The notes under the pieces were generated by a model. That model did no database searches and had not been told where the DNA came from. It worked only from the letters and a program-made list of their open reading frames with translations. From Peptococcaceae bacterium (GTDB lineage: Bacteria; Bacillota; DSM-12270; Thermacetogeniales; Thermacetogeniaceae), in assembly GCA_023249405.1 (NCBI GenBank), contig JAHFCR010000011.1, forward strand, positions 12,481 to 72,784: a stretch of 60,304 nucleotides of DNA. The letters are read 5' to 3'. This document shows positions 40,224-50,254 of this stretch, in pieces. A program made the position numbers and the translations under genes. Position 1 is the first letter of the stretch. Each line of letters starts with the position of its first letter.

Positions 40224-40419
40224 TGTTATTATTTTTTAATAAAGGCCGCCAGAGCCTACAGGCGTTGAAAAGCCCGGAAGATCACCATCCTGGCGCACCG
40301 CGCCCATGCCGCGAAGCACCTGGCGGCTGAAGGTGGTCTTGCTGAAAAGGCGTAAAAATGATAAGCTTTTTGAGCAGGAAGGAGTTTTTTGGGGTTTTGA
40401 GAGACGACGGAGGGTGTTC

Positions 40420-41430
40420 ATGCTAGACAATAATAGCGGCATCTTGGCCAGAACCGCCAGGCCGGGAAGAACAGCCAGAAAAAGAATGAATACCAAGAAA
40501 ATCCTGTTAGCGGTATTGCTTTTTCTAGGTGCTAACATCATCTTGTTTGCCGTGACGTGCCCATTTGTGGTCTGGTACGGCCCTTTTCGCAACATCAAAA
40601 ATGCCGCCGTCGGGGCGATCGTCACTTCCCAACACCAGTACCTGCTGCGCTACATCATGAGTCCCTGGGAGATCAGCAAGCTCCTGTCGAAGGAACCGCA
40701 GACTGGCGGCGGGGTGTCCGGTGTCACCGTCGGAAAAAACCATGACAACGGGGTAGCGCTGACAGAGGTCAACAGTTCCCGCTTCAAGGGCTACCTGCTG
40801 GAGATCAATGACCCCACCCGGGTCAAGCTGGGCGTAACCGCCAGTCTGGGAGTCAAGGGAGAGCTGACCAGTGAGATCGCCCGGGATAACGGGGCAATGG
40901 CGGCGGTGAACGCCGGCGGCTTCGACGACCCGGCCGGCACAGGCAACGGCAGGACCCCTTACGGGGTCATCATTCACAACGGCTTCATTCTTGCCGGGGC
41001 AGGAACCCAGGAGAAGGTAGAACTGATCGGTCTGGACGACAACGGGATACTGTTCACCGGCTACTACACCATCAGGGAGATCCGCCAGTTAGGCATCAAG
41101 GACGGCATCTCCTTCGGACCGACCCTGATCAAGAACGGCCAGAAGCAGATCGCCAGGGGGGACGGAGGCTGGGGCATCGCTCCGCGCACCGCCATCGGGC
41201 AGAAGCAGGACGGAACCATCATGCTGCTGGTGATCGATGGACGCCAGACTGACTCCTTGGGCGCCAGCCTGCTGGATGTGCAAAACATTCTCTACGACAA
41301 CGGCGCCTGGACGGCGGCCAATCTGGACGGCGGCTCCAGCACCACTATGTACTACGAGGGCAAGGTCGTCAACCATCCTTGCGACCTGATGGGAGAGCGC
41401 CTGGTTCCCACCGCCTTCATCGTCATTTAA
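40420..41430 (+). CDS. Phosphodiester glycosidase (NAGPA) family protein, first copy
   Basis: A protein of about 336 residues. A single N-terminal helix (ILLAVLLFLGANIILFAVTC) anchors an extracytoplasmic domain of the phosphodiester glycosidase family, with MAAVNAGGFDDPAG, TPYGVIIHNG, RTAIGQKQDGTIMLLVIDGRQ and NLDGGSSTTMYYEG. Eukaryotic members remove GlcNAc from a phosphodiester; bacterial ones act in the envelope or on spores with unknown substrates. CGGAGGG precedes the ATG at 40420; an in-frame ATG at 40486 is the alternative. It forms an operon with the next two genes. Confidence 0.87.
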   Translation: MLDNNSGILARTARPGRTARKRMNTKKILLAVLLFLGANIILFAVTCPFVVWYGPFRNIKNAAVGAIVTSQHQYLLRYIMSPWEISKLLSKEPQTGGGVSGVTVGKNHDNGVALTEVNSSRFKGYLLEINDPTRVKLGVTASLGVKGELTSEIARDNGAMAAVNAGGFDDPAGTGNGRTPYGVIIHNGFILAGAGTQEKVELIGLDDNGILFTGYYTIREIRQLGIKDGISFGPTLIKNGQKQIARGDGGWGIAPRTAIGQKQDGTIMLLVIDGRQTDSLGASLLDVQNILYDNGAWTAANLDGGSSTTMYYEGKVVNHPCDLMGERLVPTAFIVI

Positions 41431-42398: not shown

Positions 42399-43394
42399 AT
42401 GCCCGTACCAAGGATGACGACGTATAGCCGAATACGGAAAAAGAGGCCCATCAAGCGGGGTGTGATCATCATCTCCCGCTTCCTGTTGATCAACGTCCTC
42501 TTCTTTATCCTTACAGCGCCCTTCATCGTGCTTTATGGTCCCTTCGACAACCTGAGGACCACCGCCATCGGGTCCATCATCACCTCCAGGCACCACGACT
42601 GGCTGCGCTACGTCCTGAGCAGCGAGCAGTACAACAAGTATGTGCCCGACAATCTGGAACAGCCGAACGGCTCGGGAGGAAAAGACTTTAGCAATTCCCA
42701 CGGCAGCGAGGTGACGCTTACGCAAATCAGCAGTTCCCGGTTCAACGGCTATCTCCTGGAAATCCAGGACCCCACCAGGGTGCGGGTGGGGGTGACCTCC
42801 AACCTGGGGACCAAAGGGGAGTCCACCAGCGACATCGCCCGGGACAACCGGGCGATAGCAGCGGTGAACGCCGGCGGCTTCGTCGACCCGCTCGGCACCG
42901 GCACCGGCAAGACTCCGTTGGGCGTGATCGTCCACAACGGCTACTTCCAGTATGGAGCGAATGCCCGGGGGAAGGTGCCGCTGATCGGGCTAGACAGCCA
43001 AGGAGTGCTGATCACCGGCAACTACACCGTTAAAGAGATCCAGGAGATGGACATTAAAGAGGGTATCTCTTTCGACTACCCCACCCTGATCCGAAACGGC
43101 AAGAAGCAGATCACCAAGGAGGTCTCCGCCCAGTACGGCCTCCAGCCGCGCACCGCCATCGGCCAGAAGGCTGACGGCCACATCCTGCTGCTGGTGATCG
43201 ATGGGCGCCAGACCAGTTCCCTGGGCGCCAGCCTGCTGGATGTGCAAAACATTCTCTACGACAACGGCGCCGTGACTGCGACCAACCTGGACGGAGGCGC
43301 CAGCACCACCATGTGCTACAACGGCAAGGTCATTAACAACCCCAGCCTCCTAATGGGCGAGCGCCTGGTACCCACTGCCATGGTCGTCATCTGA
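42399..43394 (+). CDS. Phosphodiester glycosidase (NAGPA) family protein, second copy
   Basis: A 331-residue paralogue of the protein at 40420, with the same layout: basic N-terminus, one helix (FLLINVLFFILTAPFIVLYG) and a NAGPA domain with IAAVNAGGFVDPLGTG, TPLGVIVHNG, TAIGQKADGHILLLVIDG and NLDGGASTTMCYNG. CGGAGGGG lies six bases before the ATG. Even at DNA level a stretch around the LGASLLDVQNILYDNG codons is identical in both genes, so the duplication is fairly recent or kept similar by gene conversion. Confidence 0.87.
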   Translation: MPVPRMTTYSRIRKKRPIKRGVIIISRFLLINVLFFILTAPFIVLYGPFDNLRTTAIGSIITSRHHDWLRYVLSSEQYNKYVPDNLEQPNGSGGKDFSNSHGSEVTLTQISSSRFNGYLLEIQDPTRVRVGVTSNLGTKGESTSDIARDNRAIAAVNAGGFVDPLGTGTGKTPLGVIVHNGYFQYGANARGKVPLIGLDSQGVLITGNYTVKEIQEMDIKEGISFDYPTLIRNGKKQITKEVSAQYGLQPRTAIGQKADGHILLLVIDGRQTSSLGASLLDVQNILYDNGAVTATNLDGGASTTMCYNGKVINNPSLLMGERLVPTAMVVI

Positions 43395-43613
43395 CCCGAC
43401 GCGGCCGCTCTTCGGTCGCCATCCCCCCGATTATCACAACTCTTCCTGTTTCGTTCTCTATCACTCTCCAGACTTCCCGGGTATTGCGCATTCATACATT
43501 CATCAATGGCATCCCGTTTTCCTGAGGATAACCTTCATTGCTGATACCTGGCGCAGCAATCCGATCAGTATGGCAATTTGATGCATATGAAGTCTCCATG
43601 AGAGACAATCAGC

Positions 43614-43686
43614 ATTAAGCCGGGTGCCATTTTGGGGCACGATAAGTCAACTAAAACTTCAGATGTGGTTTAAACCCCATCTGAAG
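43614..43686 (-). repeat. Degenerate IS200/IS605-like element, copy C
   Basis: In the orientation of copy B, this keeps TTAAGCCGGGTGCC, a short interior and a near-perfect palindrome (43657-43686, CTTCAGATGTGG / CCCCATCTGAAG with one mismatch). The outer 42-base end seen in copies A and B is missing. The first part of the 498-base gap 43395-43892 shows nothing else. Confidence 0.5.
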
Positions 43687-43740
43687 CAATTCTCCTTATT
43701 TTTCTTATTTTAAAAAGGAGATTGGTAATTAGCGTAGAAC

Positions 43741-43846
43741 ATAGGCTAAGAATGGTAATAGAAAAGGCTGCATGGGCAAGCCTTGTACATAACCGGATTA
43801 CTAAGCCAATAGCCATTTAACTCTCCGGTTTTAACGGAGAGTTTTT
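43741..43846 (+). ncRNA. Structured leader with intrinsic terminator before the stressosome operon
   Basis: Nested pairings are ATAGGCT with AGCCAAT (43741-43747/43804-43810), TGGTAAT with ATTACTA (about 43753-43759/43797-43803) and an inner hairpin AGGCT/AGCCT. A rho-independent terminator follows: CTCTCCG/CGGAGAG with seven-base loop (43821-43841) and five T. The stem's CTCTCC could pair instead with the identical GGAGAG of the rsbR Shine-Dalgarno (43880-43885). It resembles a riboswitch or attenuator, but no known class was matched. Confidence 0.45.
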
Positions 43847-43892
43847 ATGCGGCAGAATGAGAAGTTATTAAAATATCAAGGAGAGCGCAGAT

Positions 43893-45590
43893 ATGCAATC
43901 AGGGGATGAGCGGCAGAACAGAGAAGAAGTTCTTAAGGAATTACAGGAGTATCGCACCATCTTTGAAATCTCCGGCTCCAGCATTGCCATAGCGGCAGAT
44001 GATGGCACCATCAATCGCGTCAATGCAGAGTTCGTGAAGCTCTTCGGCTATTCGAAAGAAGAGGTCGAGGGCCGGAAAAAATGGTCGGAACTCTGTGCAG
44101 CGGAAGACAGAGACCGGATCAATCACTATCATCAACTGAGAAGGAGCAACCCCGATAGCGCCCCTCACAACTATGAGGCACGCTTTATCCATAAGAACGG
44201 CGGTCTTATTCATGCCTATATCACCGCCGGCCTGATTCCGAAAACCCAGGAATCTGTTCTGGCCGTTATCGATATCAGCAATCTCAAGAAGGCCGAGGAA
44301 ACTGCCAGAGTATCGGAGAGAAGCTACCGGCAGATCTTTAACTCTGTCAACGATGCCATTATCGTACACGATGCGGCGAGAGAGATCATCGTCGACGCCA
44401 ACACCAAGGCAAGCGAGATGTTTGGTTATACACTCGAGGAGATCAAAAATACCTCCTTGAAGGATAGAGTCGCCGGTAAGCACCCCTATTCAGAGGCCAT
44501 TCTCAGAGATTTTATCAATAAGGCAGCCAAGGGTGCGCCACAGGTCTTTGAGTGGCTGTACAGGCACAAGGATGGCCGGACCTTCAGCACCGAGATCAGC
44601 CTCAAAGATGCCGTCATCAGCGGCGATCAACTGGTACTGGCGATTATTCGGGACATTACCGAGCGCAAGCGGGCGGAGGAGGCCTTCCGGGAGACGAACG
44701 CCTATCTGGAAAACCTGCTCAACTACGCCAACGCCCCGATCATCGTGTGGGACCCGGACTATAACATAACTCGCTTCAATAGGGCCTTTGAACGTCTGAC
44801 CGGGTACCGCGCCGACGAGGTGTTGGGCAAATCCCTGGAGATCCTGTTCCCCGATGACAAGAAAGAGGATTCGATGGGTCTGATCCGCCGCACGGCCTCC
44901 GGAGAGCGCTGGGAAGTGGTGGAGATTGCCATCGCCCATGTCGATCAGACAGTGCGGACGGTGCTCTGGAACTCGGCCACCCTGTTTGCGCCGGACGGCA
45001 CGACAGTGGTCGCCACCATCGCCCAGGGGCAGGACATTACCGCCCGCAAGCGGGCGGAGGAAGAACTGCGGCAATCTCATGAAAAGTTGGAGTCTAGAGT
45101 CAGGGAACGGACAGCCGAGTTGGAAAAGCTCAATGAGGCACTGCGAGGGGAAATAGAAGAGCGTAAGCGGGCCGAGGAGATCATCTCCCGCCAGGCCCAG
45201 GAGATTCTCGAGGTGTCCACCCCGGTGATTCAGATCTGGGAAGGTATCGTCTCCGTGCCCCTGATCGGCACCCTGGACAGTATGCGAGCACAGCAGTTGA
45301 TGGAACAGTTGCTGCAGAGGATCGTGGAGACTGGCTCGGCAGTCGCCCTGCTCGACGTTACCGGAGTTCCCGCCATTGATTCTAAAACCGCCCGGTATCT
45401 GATCGAAACTATCAGCGCAGTGCGTCTGTTAGGGGCGGAGGTGGTGCTGACCGGGATTCGCCCGGCAATCGCCCGGACACTCGCTCAATTGGGCGTAGAC
45501 CTGTCCAACGTCAACACCCGCTCATCCTTCTCCGCCGGGTTGCTCTTCGCTCTGACCCTGCTCAAACTGCGGGTGGTCAGCCATGATTGA
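43893..45590 (+). CDS. rsbR: RsbR-type stressosome sensor with three PAS domains and C-terminal STAS
   Basis: A 565-residue cytosolic protein. Three PAS domains (about 18-130, 145-260, 265-390) are followed by a long coiled coil (about 385-435, KLESRVRERTAELEKLNEALRGEIEERKR) and a STAS domain (about 445-560). The STAS part has LLDVTGVPAIDSKTARYL and VVLTGIRPAIARTLAQLG, which contain the two Thr sites that RsbT phosphorylates in RsbR. PAS instead of the usual non-heme globin input suggests redox, light or ligand sensing. AAGGAG precedes the ATG. The gene overlaps rsbS by eight bases. Confidence 0.92.
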   Translation: MQSGDERQNREEVLKELQEYRTIFEISGSSIAIAADDGTINRVNAEFVKLFGYSKEEVEGRKKWSELCAAEDRDRINHYHQLRRSNPDSAPHNYEARFIHKNGGLIHAYITAGLIPKTQESVLAVIDISNLKKAEETARVSERSYRQIFNSVNDAIIVHDAAREIIVDANTKASEMFGYTLEEIKNTSLKDRVAGKHPYSEAILRDFINKAAKGAPQVFEWLYRHKDGRTFSTEISLKDAVISGDQLVLAIIRDITERKRAEEAFRETNAYLENLLNYANAPIIVWDPDYNITRFNRAFERLTGYRADEVLGKSLEILFPDDKKEDSMGLIRRTASGERWEVVEIAIAHVDQTVRTVLWNSATLFAPDGTTVVATIAQGQDITARKRAEEELRQSHEKLESRVRERTAELEKLNEALRGEIEERKRAEEIISRQAQEILEVSTPVIQIWEGIVSVPLIGTLDSMRAQQLMEQLLQRIVETGSAVALLDVTGVPAIDSKTARYLIETISAVRLLGAEVVLTGIRPAIARTLAQLGVDLSNVNTRSSFSAGLLFALTLLKLRVVSHD

Positions 45591-45996
45591 GCAAAGACAC
45601 CTAAAGGGGCGTGAACCGATCACTGGCGAAAGCATTTCGGTGATCAAAATACGGGACGTGCTGCTGGTGGCGATGCCGCCGGATCCGGATGATACCACCA
45701 TTACCATACTCCAGGAAAAAGTGCTGGCCGCCATAGAGCGGTATCAAGTCAAGGGCCTGGTGTTAGACATCTCCGCCGTGCAGACGTTGGATTCTTTCTT
45801 TGCCCGGGTGGTAGCGGAAACAGCCCAGATGGTGGTACTGATGGGTGCTCAGACGGTGATCGCCGGGATGCAGCCGAGCGTGGCCATCACCGCCACGCAA
45901 CTTGGCCTGACACTAGGAGGCGCCCTGACAGCCCTGAATGTCGACCTCGCCCTGGAGATAGTCAGCGACGCCTTCCAACGGAGACAGCGTTCATGA
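45583..45996 (+). CDS. rsbS: RsbS-type STAS stressosome scaffold protein
   Basis: A 137-residue STAS-only protein that with RsbR builds the stressosome core. The key segment VLDISAVQTLDSFFARVV carries the Ser that RsbT phosphorylates. TVIAGMQPSVAITATQLGL matches the second conserved helix. It overlaps rsbR by eight bases and rsbT by four, so stoichiometry is set by translational coupling. Confidence 0.92.
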   Translation: MIEQRHLKGREPITGESISVIKIRDVLLVAMPPDPDDTTITILQEKVLAAIERYQVKGLVLDISAVQTLDSFFARVVAETAQMVVLMGAQTVIAGMQPSVAITATQLGLTLGGALTALNVDLALEIVSDAFQRRQRS

Positions 45997-46406
45997 TCGA
46001 TGGCATTCGGGAAGAGGTTGCCATAATTGATGAGAGCGATATCATCCTGGTGCGGAAGACGGTCCGTGAGGCCGCAACAAAGTTCAACTACAGCCTCACG
46101 GATGTGACACGCATTGTCACCGCGGCGTCGGAATTGGCGCGCAACATTTTCCTATATGCCGGCTCGGGAGTGATGAGGTGGCGTCTGCTGGAGGGAAATG
46201 GCGCCAAGGGAATGGAGTTGATCTTCGAGGATCGGGGGCCAGGCATCACCGATCTGGAACAGGCCTTTCAGGAAGGCTATTCCACCAGTGGCGGCCTCGG
46301 CCTTGGTCTCCCTGGAACACAGAGGCTGATGGATGAGATGGAGATCGATACCCGGGTAGGCGTAGGTACCACCGTTGTCGTCAGAAAATGGCAGAGGAGA
46401 TACTAA
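45993..46406 (+). CDS. rsbT: RsbT-type serine/threonine kinase
   Basis: A 137-residue GHKL-ATPase kinase that phosphorylates RsbS and RsbR and is released to activate a downstream partner. The N box is SELARNIFLYAG and the G boxes EDRGPGITDLEQAF and GGLGLGLPGTQRLMDEMEI. Length and motifs are standard. No sigma-B gene or RsbU is present; the released RsbT must act on another target, perhaps the kinases encoded downstream. Confidence 0.94.
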   Translation: MIDGIREEVAIIDESDIILVRKTVREAATKFNYSLTDVTRIVTAASELARNIFLYAGSGVMRWRLLEGNGAKGMELIFEDRGPGITDLEQAFQEGYSTSGGLGLGLPGTQRLMDEMEIDTRVGVGTTVVVRKWQRRY

Positions 46407-46407
46407 G

Positions 46408-47451
46408 ATGCTATTGCCGTCCGTCTGCAGAGTGCCAATCTCCCATTCCAGCGATACGAGCGAGGCGAGGCGTCTGGCCAGGACGATGGCCACCGGGATC
46501 GGTTTCAGCTTGACAGAGTGCGAGGATCTCGCCATTGTTGCCAGCGAACTGGCATCCAATCTGATCAAGCACGCCACAGGCGGCAAACTGGTATTCACTC
46601 CTCTCAACGAGAGCGGACGCCTGGGCATCAAGATGGAATCACTGGACGAGGGACCGGGGATCGCTGACATCGAGCTGGCTATGGCCGATGGCTTCTCGAC
46701 CACAGGCAGCTTGGGCTACGGTCTGGGCGCCGTCAACCGGCTGATGGACGAGTTGGAGATCCGGCCCAGGTCTGACGGCAAACCCGGCACACAGATCACC
46801 TGTCTGCGCTGGAGGTTGGAACATCATCAAATGGGGGTCTGCCCGCTCTCTTTCGGGGCCGCCACTCGCGCCTGCCGCGGCATGGAACTAAACGGAGACG
46901 CCTATCTCGTCAAGCGCTGGAATAATTCTGCCCTGGTTGCTCTGATCGACGGGCTGGGGCATGGACAACAGGCCAACATCGCCGCCCAGGCAGCCAGAGA
47001 ATATATCGAGAATCACTATAACCAGCCGCTGGAGAAGATTGTGCAGGGAGCAGACCGGGCCTGCCGCGCCACCAGGGGGGTAGTGATGGCCCTAGCCCGG
47101 TTCGATTGGCAATTGCAGCCGGTCAGACTTTCCTTTATCAGCGTCGGCAATATCGAGGCCAGGGTGAACGGCAACCCCACGATAGAAAGTTTCCCGGCGT
47201 ACCGCGGCGTGATCGGCCTGAACGCTTCTGATCCCGTTGCCGCCGAAGATCCCTGGCATCCAGACTATACACTGGTGCTACATACTGACGGCCTGCGCAC
47301 GAACTGGCGCTGGGATGACTTTCCCGGGCTGGCGGCACTCCCGCCAGCCGATGCTGCCCGGCGCCTGCTGCAGGATCTGGCCAAGGAGGAGGACGACGCC
47401 ACTGTGATCGTGGTGGGAAAAAATAAATCAATCGATATTAGCTATGAATGA
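46408..47451 (+). CDS. GHKL-ATPase fused to RsbX/SpoIIE-like PP2C phosphatase
   Basis: A 347-residue fusion. Residues 1-135 are an anti-sigma-type GHKL domain close to RsbT (SELASNLIKHATGG; DEGPGIADIELAMADGFST; GSLGYGLGAVNRLMDELEI). Residues 150-347 are a PP2C-like phosphatase as in RsbX (ALIDGLGHGQQANIAAQ; LHTDGL; EEDDATVIVV). It could therefore both phosphorylate and dephosphorylate stressosome proteins. The ATG at 46408 has GGAG eight bases upstream and lies one base after the rsbT stop. The stop overlaps the next kinase gene by eight bases. Confidence 0.88.
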   Translation: MLLPSVCRVPISHSSDTSEARRLARTMATGIGFSLTECEDLAIVASELASNLIKHATGGKLVFTPLNESGRLGIKMESLDEGPGIADIELAMADGFSTTGSLGYGLGAVNRLMDELEIRPRSDGKPGTQITCLRWRLEHHQMGVCPLSFGAATRACRGMELNGDAYLVKRWNNSALVALIDGLGHGQQANIAAQAAREYIENHYNQPLEKIVQGADRACRATRGVVMALARFDWQLQPVRLSFISVGNIEARVNGNPTIESFPAYRGVIGLNASDPVAAEDPWHPDYTLVLHTDGLRTNWRWDDFPGLAALPPADAARRLLQDLAKEEDDATVIVVGKNKSIDISYE

Positions 47452-48331
47452 TCCGAATATAGATATAGGCACCCTGAAAGAGCAGTTATATCAAACGCTG
47501 AAGCAGAATCGCCTCCTCCAGGAGGAGTTGGAAGCCACCAACCGCGGCCTGATCGCTCTAACCATGGAACTGGAAGCGAAGAAAGAGGAGATCCAGGCGA
47601 TCACTCAACAACTCTGGCAGGCGGCCAGAATGGCAACAGTTGGCGAGTTGGCGGCCAGGATCGCTCACGAGTTAAACAACCCGCTGACTACCGTGAGCCT
47701 GCGGGTGGAATCCCTGATCGCCCAGGTTCCCTACGACGTTCCTCAGCAGAGGCAACTGCAGATCATCTCCCAGGAAGTCGAGCGCATGGCCACGCTGGTC
47801 AAGAACCTGCTTGACTTCAGCCGGCGCAACCAGCGGCAGATCTCCATCATCGATATCTGCCTGGAGATAGAGCGCTCTCTGGAGCTGATCAGTTATCATT
47901 TTCGCAAGAACCGGATCATTATCGAACGGGATTACCAGCCCGAACTGCCACTGTTGCCCGCTGACCGCCAGGAGTTGCAGCAGCTTTTCCTGAATCTGTT
48001 CACCAATGCCGGTGACGCCATGCCCCAGGGAGGAACGCTGACGATCCGGATCTACGCGAAACACGCAGACGCCGATTGGGTTGCTGTCGATATTGCCGAT
48101 ACCGGCATGGGCATTCAGCCAGATGACCTGCCAAGAGTGATGGAGCCTTTTTTTACCACCAAACCGGAGGGCAAGGGCACCGGACTAGGACTGCCGATCT
48201 GCCGCCGCATCGTGCAGTCGCATCATGGAATGATCACCATTGCCAGCAAAGCAGCCAAAGGCACGACCGTCTCTGTAAATTTGCCAGTCATCGACGGGGG
48301 ATCTGCGGAGCCGTATCCGGAACTATTTTGA
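47444..48331 (+). CDS. Soluble sensor histidine kinase
   Basis: A 295-residue kinase without membrane segments or PAS domain. An N-terminal coiled coil (residues 8-60) leads to a HisKA domain with MATVGELAARIAHELNNPLTTVS and a HATPase_c domain (NLFTNAGDAM, DIADTGMGI, KGTGLGLPICRRIVQ). With no sensor of its own it probably takes input from the co-translated stressosome proteins. The likely partner is the receiver domain of the next gene. Confidence 0.92.
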   Translation: MNDPNIDIGTLKEQLYQTLKQNRLLQEELEATNRGLIALTMELEAKKEEIQAITQQLWQAARMATVGELAARIAHELNNPLTTVSLRVESLIAQVPYDVPQQRQLQIISQEVERMATLVKNLLDFSRRNQRQISIIDICLEIERSLELISYHFRKNRIIIERDYQPELPLLPADRQELQQLFLNLFTNAGDAMPQGGTLTIRIYAKHADADWVAVDIADTGMGIQPDDLPRVMEPFFTTKPEGKGTGLGLPICRRIVQSHHGMITIASKAAKGTTVSVNLPVIDGGSAEPYPELF

Positions 48332-48355: not shown

Positions 48356-50254
48356 ATGGTTACGACAAAATTTGGGCGCCTGCTGGTTGTTGACGATGAA
48401 ACAAAACTGATGACTGCCCTGTGCGAGACTCTCAGCGTACATGGATACGAGGCGCACGGTGCCGTGTCCGGCGCAGACGCCCTGCAAGCCTTACAAGAGC
48501 AGGGTTTCGATCTGCTCCTGATCGATCTGATGATGCCGGAAATGGACGGGATCGAGTTATTAAAAAATGCGAAAAAAATTGATCCCAACGTTGGCAGCAT
48601 CATCATGACCGGATATGGGACGGTGCAGACAGCAATAGAGGCAATGAAGGCAGGGGCATTCGATTACGTGCTGAAACCCTTCAAGCTGGGCATGTTGCTA
48701 CCGGCGTTGGAGCGCGCCATGGAAATGAGGCGCCTGAAAGATGAAAATCTGCAGTTGCGTGAATCGATGGCGATCTATAATCTGGCCACGACTATTTCCC
48801 AAAAGTTGGACATGGATCTGATTCTCAACAAGATCGCCGATGCCGTGATCGATCAGTGCGAGGCGGACGAGATGTCGATCATGCTGCCGGCAGGCACGGA
48901 TGATGAGCTTTATGTAGCTATTGCCCGGTGCGGGCAGAGGGCAGGCATGATCGAGGGGCGGATCACAATTTCCGAGGGAGTGTTCAACTGGGCTACCGCC
49001 AACCGGGAGACGCTGCTGCGGCAAGGGTTTGTCTGCGATCCCCGTTTTGCCCCGATCAGAGCGCGGCCGGAGATCGAGCACTCCATCTCCATTCCCCTGC
49101 TTGTTGGCGGAGAGTGTGTCGGAGTATTGAACGTCAATTCGAAGAGGAGAGCATCCTTCCCTCCAGGGAAGATCAGGGTGCTGAACATCCTGGCCGGCAC
49201 TGCCGCCAGCACCATCCAAAACGCCAGGCTCTACGAGGAATTGAAGCAGGCCGAGCGGAACTACCGCTCCATCTTCGAAAATGCCACCGAGGGAGTCTTC
49301 CGGGCTGACCGGAATGGCCGCTATCTTTTAGCAAACCCGGCACTGGCGCGCATCCTGGGATATGATCACCCCGATGAATTGCTCTCACTGGCATCCGGAA
49401 TGGATTATGAGCGCTTATTGGAAAGCAAGATCACGGTGCAGAGCATAGAGCACCAGCACTGCCGCCGGGACGGCGCCAGCATCTGGGTCTCAGAAAATAT
49501 CTGGGCGGTGCATGATGATCAGGATCGGATCCTCTACTTTGAAGGCATCATGAAAGATATCACGGAATCCAAGATATTTAGACAGGAGATGGCCCGCCTG
49601 GATCGGCTCAATCTGGTGGGAGAGATGGCCGCAGGCCTCGCCCACGAGATCCGGAACCCGATGACTGTCGTAAGGGGTTATTTACAACTGCTGCAGCTGA
49701 AAGAGGGGTATGCCGAAGATCGAAAACGCCTTACTGTGATGATCGAAGAACTCGACCGCGCCAACGCCATCATCACAGAATTTCTCTCCCTGGCGAGAAA
49801 TGCTCCGGTGAAATTGCAAAGACAGAGCCTCAACAACATTCTGACAGCATTATTGCCTTTAATACAGGCCGATGCCGTCAAGACAGGGATAGCCGTAAAC
49901 TTGAAATTAGCAGAGATTCCTGAATTGAGTCTGGATGAGAAGCAGATCCGGCAGGTCGTGCTCAATTTTGTTCGCAATGGATTGGAAGCAATGGACGGTA
50001 AAGGGGTGCTGACAATTAAAACCTACCTGGATGAGGATGAGGTCGTGTTAGCCGTAAATGACCAGGGAAATGGCATCAGCCCCGATGTGCTTGAGAAAAT
50101 AGGCACACCCTTTTTTTCCACCAAAGAAAAGGGGACCGGCCTCGGTTTGGCGGTCTGCTACCGGATCGCCGAACAGCATAATGCCAAAATAAAAGTGGAA
50201 ACAGGGGCAGAGGGAACGACCTTTGCCGTTTATTTTCCGCCAGACGTAAATTAA
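48356..50254 (+). CDS. Hybrid REC-GAF-PAS histidine kinase
   Basis: A 632-residue cytosolic protein. A receiver domain (about 8-120; VVDDETKL, LIDLMMPEMDG, VLKPF) is followed by GAF (about 135-295), PAS (about 300-415), HisKA (MAAGLAHEIRNPMTVVRGY) and HATPase_c (NFVRNGLEAMDG; KGTGLGLAVCYRIAEQ). Receiver-first order suggests it is phosphorylated by the preceding kinase and then signals on. The start at 48356 (GGGGG nine bases upstream) is preferred to a TTG five codons earlier. It ends the stressosome operon; no DNA-binding output is encoded here. Confidence 0.92.
   Translation: MVTTKFGRLLVVDDETKLMTALCETLSVHGYEAHGAVSGADALQALQEQGFDLLLIDLMMPEMDGIELLKNAKKIDPNVGSIIMTGYGTVQTAIEAMKAGAFDYVLKPFKLGMLLPALERAMEMRRLKDENLQLRESMAIYNLATTISQKLDMDLILNKIADAVIDQCEADEMSIMLPAGTDDELYVAIARCGQRAGMIEGRITISEGVFNWATANRETLLRQGFVCDPRFAPIRARPEIEHSISIPLLVGGECVGVLNVNSKRRASFPPGKIRVLNILAGTAASTIQNARLYEELKQAERNYRSIFENATEGVFRADRNGRYLLANPALARILGYDHPDELLSLASGMDYERLLESKITVQSIEHQHCRRDGASIWVSENIWAVHDDQDRILYFEGIMKDITESKIFRQEMARLDRLNLVGEMAAGLAHEIRNPMTVVRGYLQLLQLKEGYAEDRKRLTVMIEELDRANAIITEFLSLARNAPVKLQRQSLNNILTALLPLIQADAVKTGIAVNLKLAEIPELSLDEKQIRQVVLNFVRNGLEAMDGKGVLTIKTYLDEDEVVLAVNDQGNGISPDVLEKIGTPFFSTKEKGTGLGLAVCYRIAEQHNAKIKVETGAEGTTFAVYFPPDVN

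Follow-up and report, generated by a model that had tools for sequence, protein, structure and literature searches.

A predicted sigma-H-type promoter and an early intrinsic terminator ahead of a stressosome-type operon in a Peptococcaceae bacterium

The stressosome-type operon described here likely has a sigma-H-type promoter of the form AGGA-N17-GAAC ahead of it, and this is the new element that our analysis brings to the locus. Within the window (the whole stretch of 60,304 nucleotides that was analyzed), the candidate promoter is followed by an intrinsic terminator, and in the reading that we favor, to which we give about an even chance, transcription of the operon would be of the SigH type and would be made partial by this early terminator ~100 nt downstream. 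Judged by title and opening of the abstract, the papers listed in our literature searches included none on a leader RNA or a SigH promoter of a stressosome operon, an absence that such a search leaves unproven.

The elements in question lie within the 498 bases that separate a phosphodiester-glycosidase gene (end 43394) from the rsbR-like gene (start 43893), and the operon itself consists of the following genes.

43893-45590, + strand: rsbR-like gene, with three PAS domains and a STAS domain
45583-45996, + strand: rsbS-like STAS gene
45993-46406, + strand: rsbT-like HATPase gene
46408-47451, + strand: HATPase-SpoIIE fusion gene (start codon assumed)
47444-48331, + strand: histidine kinase gene
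48356-50254, + strand: receiver-GAF-PAS-histidine kinase gene (start codon assumed)

Judged by domains and order, genes for an RsbR-type STAS protein, an RsbS-type STAS protein and an RsbT-type kinase follow one another directly, the arrangement that marks a stressosome operon; an NCBIfam search returned no Rsb equivalog above cut-off for the operon proteins. The stressosome operon of B. subtilis is rsbR-S-T-X, and the order of STAS sensor, STAS scaffold, HATPase switch kinase and SpoIIE-type phosphatase is the same in both. Unlike its B. subtilis counterpart, the operon here has sensor domains of the PAS type, joins HATPase and phosphatase in one fusion, carries two histidine kinase genes downstream and has, as predicted, a sigma-H-type promoter. 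On the other side of the intergenic region, the two neighboring phosphodiester-glycosidase-like genes (40306-41430 and 42399-43394) are alike and perhaps reflect a tandem duplication; the latter matches Pfam NAGPA, and the former was judged from its own sequence.

The features between the glycosidase gene and the operon are as follows.

43598-43699, + strand: palindromic repeat, one of the copies interspersed in this genome, immediately 5' of the promoter and outside the leader
43716-43742, + strand: predicted sigma-H-type promoter, with a -35 box AGGA at 43716-43719, a spacer of 17 and a -10 box GAAC at 43737-43740
43744-43815, + strand: nested-helix fold drawn by the sequence-only reading, with an outer stem that lies either at the predicted start or upstream of it
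43752-43820, + strand: 22-codon ATG..TAA frame whose end lies on the terminator, with a codon score like that of non-coding sequence
43791-43797, + strand: AACCGGA, 5' half of a possible antiterminator helix
43819-43846, + strand: intrinsic terminator by fold and strict scan, with a 9-bp stem, a 7-nt loop and a T run at 43842-43846
43824-43830, + strand: TCCGGTT, 3' half of the possible antiterminator helix
43880-43885, + strand: GGAGAG ribosome site of the rsbR-like gene

With respect to the promoter, its boxes are of the AGGA/GAAT type apart from the last base, which is C here, the spacer is 17 nt, and the genome encodes SigH (374 bits against a cut-off of 294.8). Transcript-start mapping in Sporomusa sphaeroides gives, as far as the available text of that study goes, a SigH motif of AGGA and GAAT boxes with 17-18 nt spacers (PMC12456013). 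The predicted promoter resembles those promoters in its AGGA and GAA(T/C) boxes and 17-nt spacer, whereas it departs from them in carrying GAAC rather than GAAT, in standing ahead of a stressosome-type operon and in having a start that is predicted. Overall, 43716-43742 is likely to be a SigH-type promoter, its use in transcription being a prediction. Assuming a promoter-to-start distance that we take to apply here, the RNA would begin at ~43746-43749.

The frequency of the motif is also consistent with this assignment. Specifically, a stricter version of the promoter pattern occurs once in the window against 0.01 expected, and across 61 genomes it gives 61 matches compared with 5 for the reversed control; by eye, 43 of the 61 matches have the same total length as here, 27. 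Of the pattern sites examined in relatives, two precede spoVS-like genes, one of which was confirmed as SpoVS by Pfam. A looser pattern occurs twice in the window, the second time ahead of a Spo0F-like response-regulator gene. This second motif (AGGA-N17/18-GTCGAACA, 39720-39695, - strand) lies ~40 bases before the gene (39655-39245), which was recognized as Spo0F-like by eye and from its position, the profile libraries giving a receiver domain only. Both spo0F and spoVS belong to the sigma-H genes of B. subtilis. A stretch of G024, another genome, aligns with 43698-43744 (79% over 47 bases, E 5.9e-4) and sits directly ahead of a gene that reads, by eye, like UMP kinase; the core common to the two is AGGA-NN-TT-N10-GTAGAACAT. 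In the organism's own genome the stricter pattern matches here only, and the looser one has 6 matches (some probably inside genes) against 0 for the reversed control, modest counts that argue against a large regulon using precisely this form of the motif.

The palindromic repeat at 43598-43699 reads CTTCAGATGNGG...CCCCATCTGAAG with a smaller palindrome flanking it. It has 32 matching rows in its own genome, which by eye amount to ~25 distinct further places, as some palindromes match both strands; a search of relatives found none except one weak match. An origin from IS200/IS605 elements was considered and set aside, no Y1 transposase having been found in the genome. A separate inverted repeat (CAATTCTCCTT...AAGGAGATTG, 43688-43726) overlaps the -35 box, and the segment 43650-43735, which takes in this repeat and the preceding palindrome, folds with z -4.9.

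The intrinsic terminator that the sequence-only reading had claimed is borne out. Its sequence, AACTCTCCG-GTTTTAA-CGGAGAGTT followed by T's (43819-43846), folds over 43819-43850 at -13.9 kcal/mol with z -5.34, a value equaled by none of 300 shuffles, and it is the sole + strand match of a strict terminator script in the 60-kb window, where the - strand has 3. The same rule gave 1, 0, 0, 0 and 0 matches on the + strand of five whole-window shuffles and succeeded in 1 of 1000 local shuffles. A simpler consensus terminator scan of the window called nothing at 43819-43846, probably because the stem takes up part of the T run; read from the sequence, the full 9-bp stem leaves just 3 unpaired T's. 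By fold and rarity this is a convincing intrinsic terminator, with termination itself predicted. A transcript start downstream of it had been named in advance as something that would count against a regulatory leader. A scan for sigma-70-type promoters found no candidate between the terminator and the rsbR-like gene, which is weak evidence against such a start, and a SigA promoter may lie below the scan threshold.

Related loci share the promoter class more readily than the leader. Among the 20 genomes of the same family, this one included, one other matches the rsbR-like protein at E <= 1e-30, in the STAS part only, so no close relative of the operon was available; G001 and G002, genomes of the same genus that are 84% and 71% complete, contain no match at that threshold. 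Pelotomaculum sp. UBA10960 (L029) has the operon's first five genes, and its rsbR-like gene has a different N-terminus and starts 16 bases after a kinase gene, without a leader. For a broader comparison we used 31 other rsbR-like loci (L090, which had no match, was left out), with rsbR start codons picked automatically, so that some may be wrong. A similar scan found no terminator in the 150 bases next to the chosen start in any of the 31, and 2 have one further upstream. AGGA-N17/18-GAAY occurs within 350 bases upstream in 6 of the 31 (L071, L073, L075, L080, L092 and L028), ~67 to 215 nt from the chosen start codons, compared with 0 for the reversed control and a mean of 0.93 and maximum of 4 over 200 shuffles; the strict GTMGAAY box occurs in 3. 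It is the promoter class that recurs, rather than the leader, and in a minority only, to which the two relatives closest by protein, L029 and L070, do not belong.

The sequence-only reading had also proposed that a compact nested-helix fold precedes the terminator and might act as a riboswitch. Folding reproduced the nested helices, yet as a structure they are unremarkable: 43741-43818 alone gives z -1.53 (17 of 300 shuffles as good) and 43744-43815, the fold as drawn, z -1.89 (12 of 300), against a background of 402 tiles, each of 78 nt, taken from the whole window (mean z -0.09, sd 1.24, 10th percentile -1.6), in which one tile in ten reaches about -1.6. Longer stretches fold better (43735-43844, z -4.04; 43735-43892, z -2.17), and both include the terminator. 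With a start at ~43746-43749 the outer stem would be wholly or partly absent from the RNA. When folding begins at those predicted starts, the fold accordingly changes and falls to chance, with z -0.3 to -0.5 and 94-111 of 300 shuffles as good.

Searches for relatives of the leader were negative in the same direction. Rfam 15 gave no match, either at the gathering threshold across the window or at E <= 5 for 43500-44100, and a structure model of the leader matched none of the 31 other rsbR-like loci. The model returned its own source and, from 298 other genomes, three matches with per-genome E of 0.017-0.084, which is no more than chance expectation; having been built from one sequence entered twice, it can find near relatives only. 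On reading, the best of these foreign matches, L149, showed no stressosome-like gene adjoining it. A BLAST search of 61 genomes with the leader as query produced many matches (E 0.004-1), which were treated as chance from the best foreign one, a run of 19/19 bases in L007 inside a coding sequence that looks by eye like dnaA. Taken together, the BLAST, structure-model and rsbR-like locus searches revealed no convincing leader homologue, and they yielded no argument for a conserved RNA.

In terms of alternative pairings, CTCTCC (43821-43826) had been said to pair equally with GGAGAG in the terminator and in the rsbR ribosome site. GGAGAG is indeed present in both the ribosome site and the 3' arm of the terminator, and it is complementary to CTCTCC in each. 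The two pairings are nonetheless not equal, since that with the ribosome site is worse by 4.2-4.4 kcal/mol (forced, -36.6 against -40.8 kcal/mol unforced; in a transcript from 43748, -29.0 against -33.4 kcal/mol), and sequestration of the ribosome site as the main switch was ruled out on this energy. The coincidence itself is unusual, as none of 30 window frames with a recognizable ribosome site has a 6-nt stretch complementary to it in the preceding 150 nt; the nominal chance of such a complement is ~7% per gene. A possible antiterminator of 7 bp (43791-43797 with 43824-43830) overlaps the terminator, and 125 of 1000 shuffles match or beat it. In RNA from 43748 it is the predicted fold until the 3' arm of the terminator is made; once the transcript is complete, its energy is less favorable by 7.5 kcal/mol (-25.9 compared with -33.4).

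By codon score, the stretches on the same side as the 22-codon frame make up 31% of the non-coding set and 2.4% of the coding set. By eye it contains no run of a regulatory codon, the feature by which a leader peptide would be recognized. The short frame (43752-43817, VIEKAAWASLVHNR) is similar to a motif conserved in ribosomal protein L13 (VIEKAVWGMLPHNR in L062). A 31-residue reading gave, besides itself, weak protein matches (E 0.014-0.3) in 17 of 41 genomes including its own (G000). These were rejected as probably due to chance, the L062 match looking by eye like ribosomal protein L13, and comparison of the frame with its matching stretch in the same genome found no DNA match longer than 11 bases.

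Set against these results, a ligand-binding riboswitch of an undescribed class, to which the multi-helix fold predicted ahead of the terminator could point, is scarcely credible: Rfam match and homologue are lacking in the searches above, the supposed sensor, begun at the predicted start, folds no better than chance, and the outer stem and the terminator do not overlap. We consider this an ordinary leader and a ligand riboswitch unlikely. Translation might instead do the sensing, with a ribosome on the 43752-43820 frame choosing between terminator and antiterminator. The frame ends in a stop codon that runs into the terminator stem and the antiterminator is predicted to form first in folding, as such an attenuator would have it, but antiterminators as good arise in 125 of 1000 shuffles, the codons look non-coding and lack a regulatory run, relatives were not found, and the start codon would follow the predicted 5' end by a mere 3-6 nt; we think this quite improbable. 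The combined version, in which a SigH-driven stressosome operon has its premature terminator read through according to translation of the near-leaderless 22-codon frame, is a long shot; if true, sporulation entry and translation state would both gate production of the stress sensor.

Two further explanations alter the role of the hairpin. Promoter and terminator frame ~100 nt, and read-through is only inferred, so the pair could bound a separate short unit (a small RNA or 22-codon gene), with the rsbR operon served by another promoter that was missed. We hold this to be unlikely, given that the sigma-70-type scan offered no such promoter, that the short frame scores as non-coding and that the leader has no homologue among those sought. 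The hairpin may also be a terminator that does not work, its free U tract being short, and the leader an inert 5' UTR; the silent consensus scan and the 3 T's left unpaired after the 9-bp stem suit this idea, whereas the strong fold, rare in shuffles, makes it highly doubtful.

The favored reading, SigH-type transcription with partial early termination, has as its observed basis the terminator sequence and fold, the promoter motif with its enrichment in relatives, and the SigH gene. In this mechanism, the promoter at 43716-43742 would start RNA at ~43746-43749, the terminator ~100 nt downstream would halt part of the polymerases to yield a short RNA, and the remainder would read through into the rsbR-rsbS-rsbT-SpoIIE/kinase operon. 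The terminator, with no ligand-sensing domain beside it, would be a constant brake, or else a brake that some general factor releases. Two features of the promoter would weigh against this reading, namely the -10 box that ends in C (GAAC) rather than T and the scarcity of the motif in its own genome (strict pattern here only, looser pattern 6 times), and the terminator's role here draws no comparative support from the other rsbR-like loci, where it was not seen.

The proposal of an attenuator survives only in the sense of a terminator in the leader. Anatomy supports it in that broad sense, because the only good promoter candidate lies upstream of the terminator and the gene downstream; as to switching, the candidate antiterminator is matched or beaten in 125/1000 shuffles. 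As far as the available text of Naville and Gautheret (2010, PMC2965389) goes, premature 5' terminators and attenuators are similar in having an intrinsic terminator with a 7-9 bp stem in a 5' leader, and such terminators are on average weaker than typical 3' terminators, as the one here appears to be. The leader differs from those attenuators in that cross-species conservation was not seen and neither a sensing element nor an alternative fold was demonstrated.

If the favored reading is true, the riboswitch claim gives way to a simpler link, in which SigH would transcribe stressosome-type operons in some spore formers, and the terminator would contribute at most a local brake. With read-through from a SigH-type promoter, the operon would be tied to a sigma factor of stationary phase and early sporulation. 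Recurrence of the motif in 6 of 31 loci would then tie stress sensing to sporulation entry, and SigH-controlled stressosome operons may recur across the phylum.
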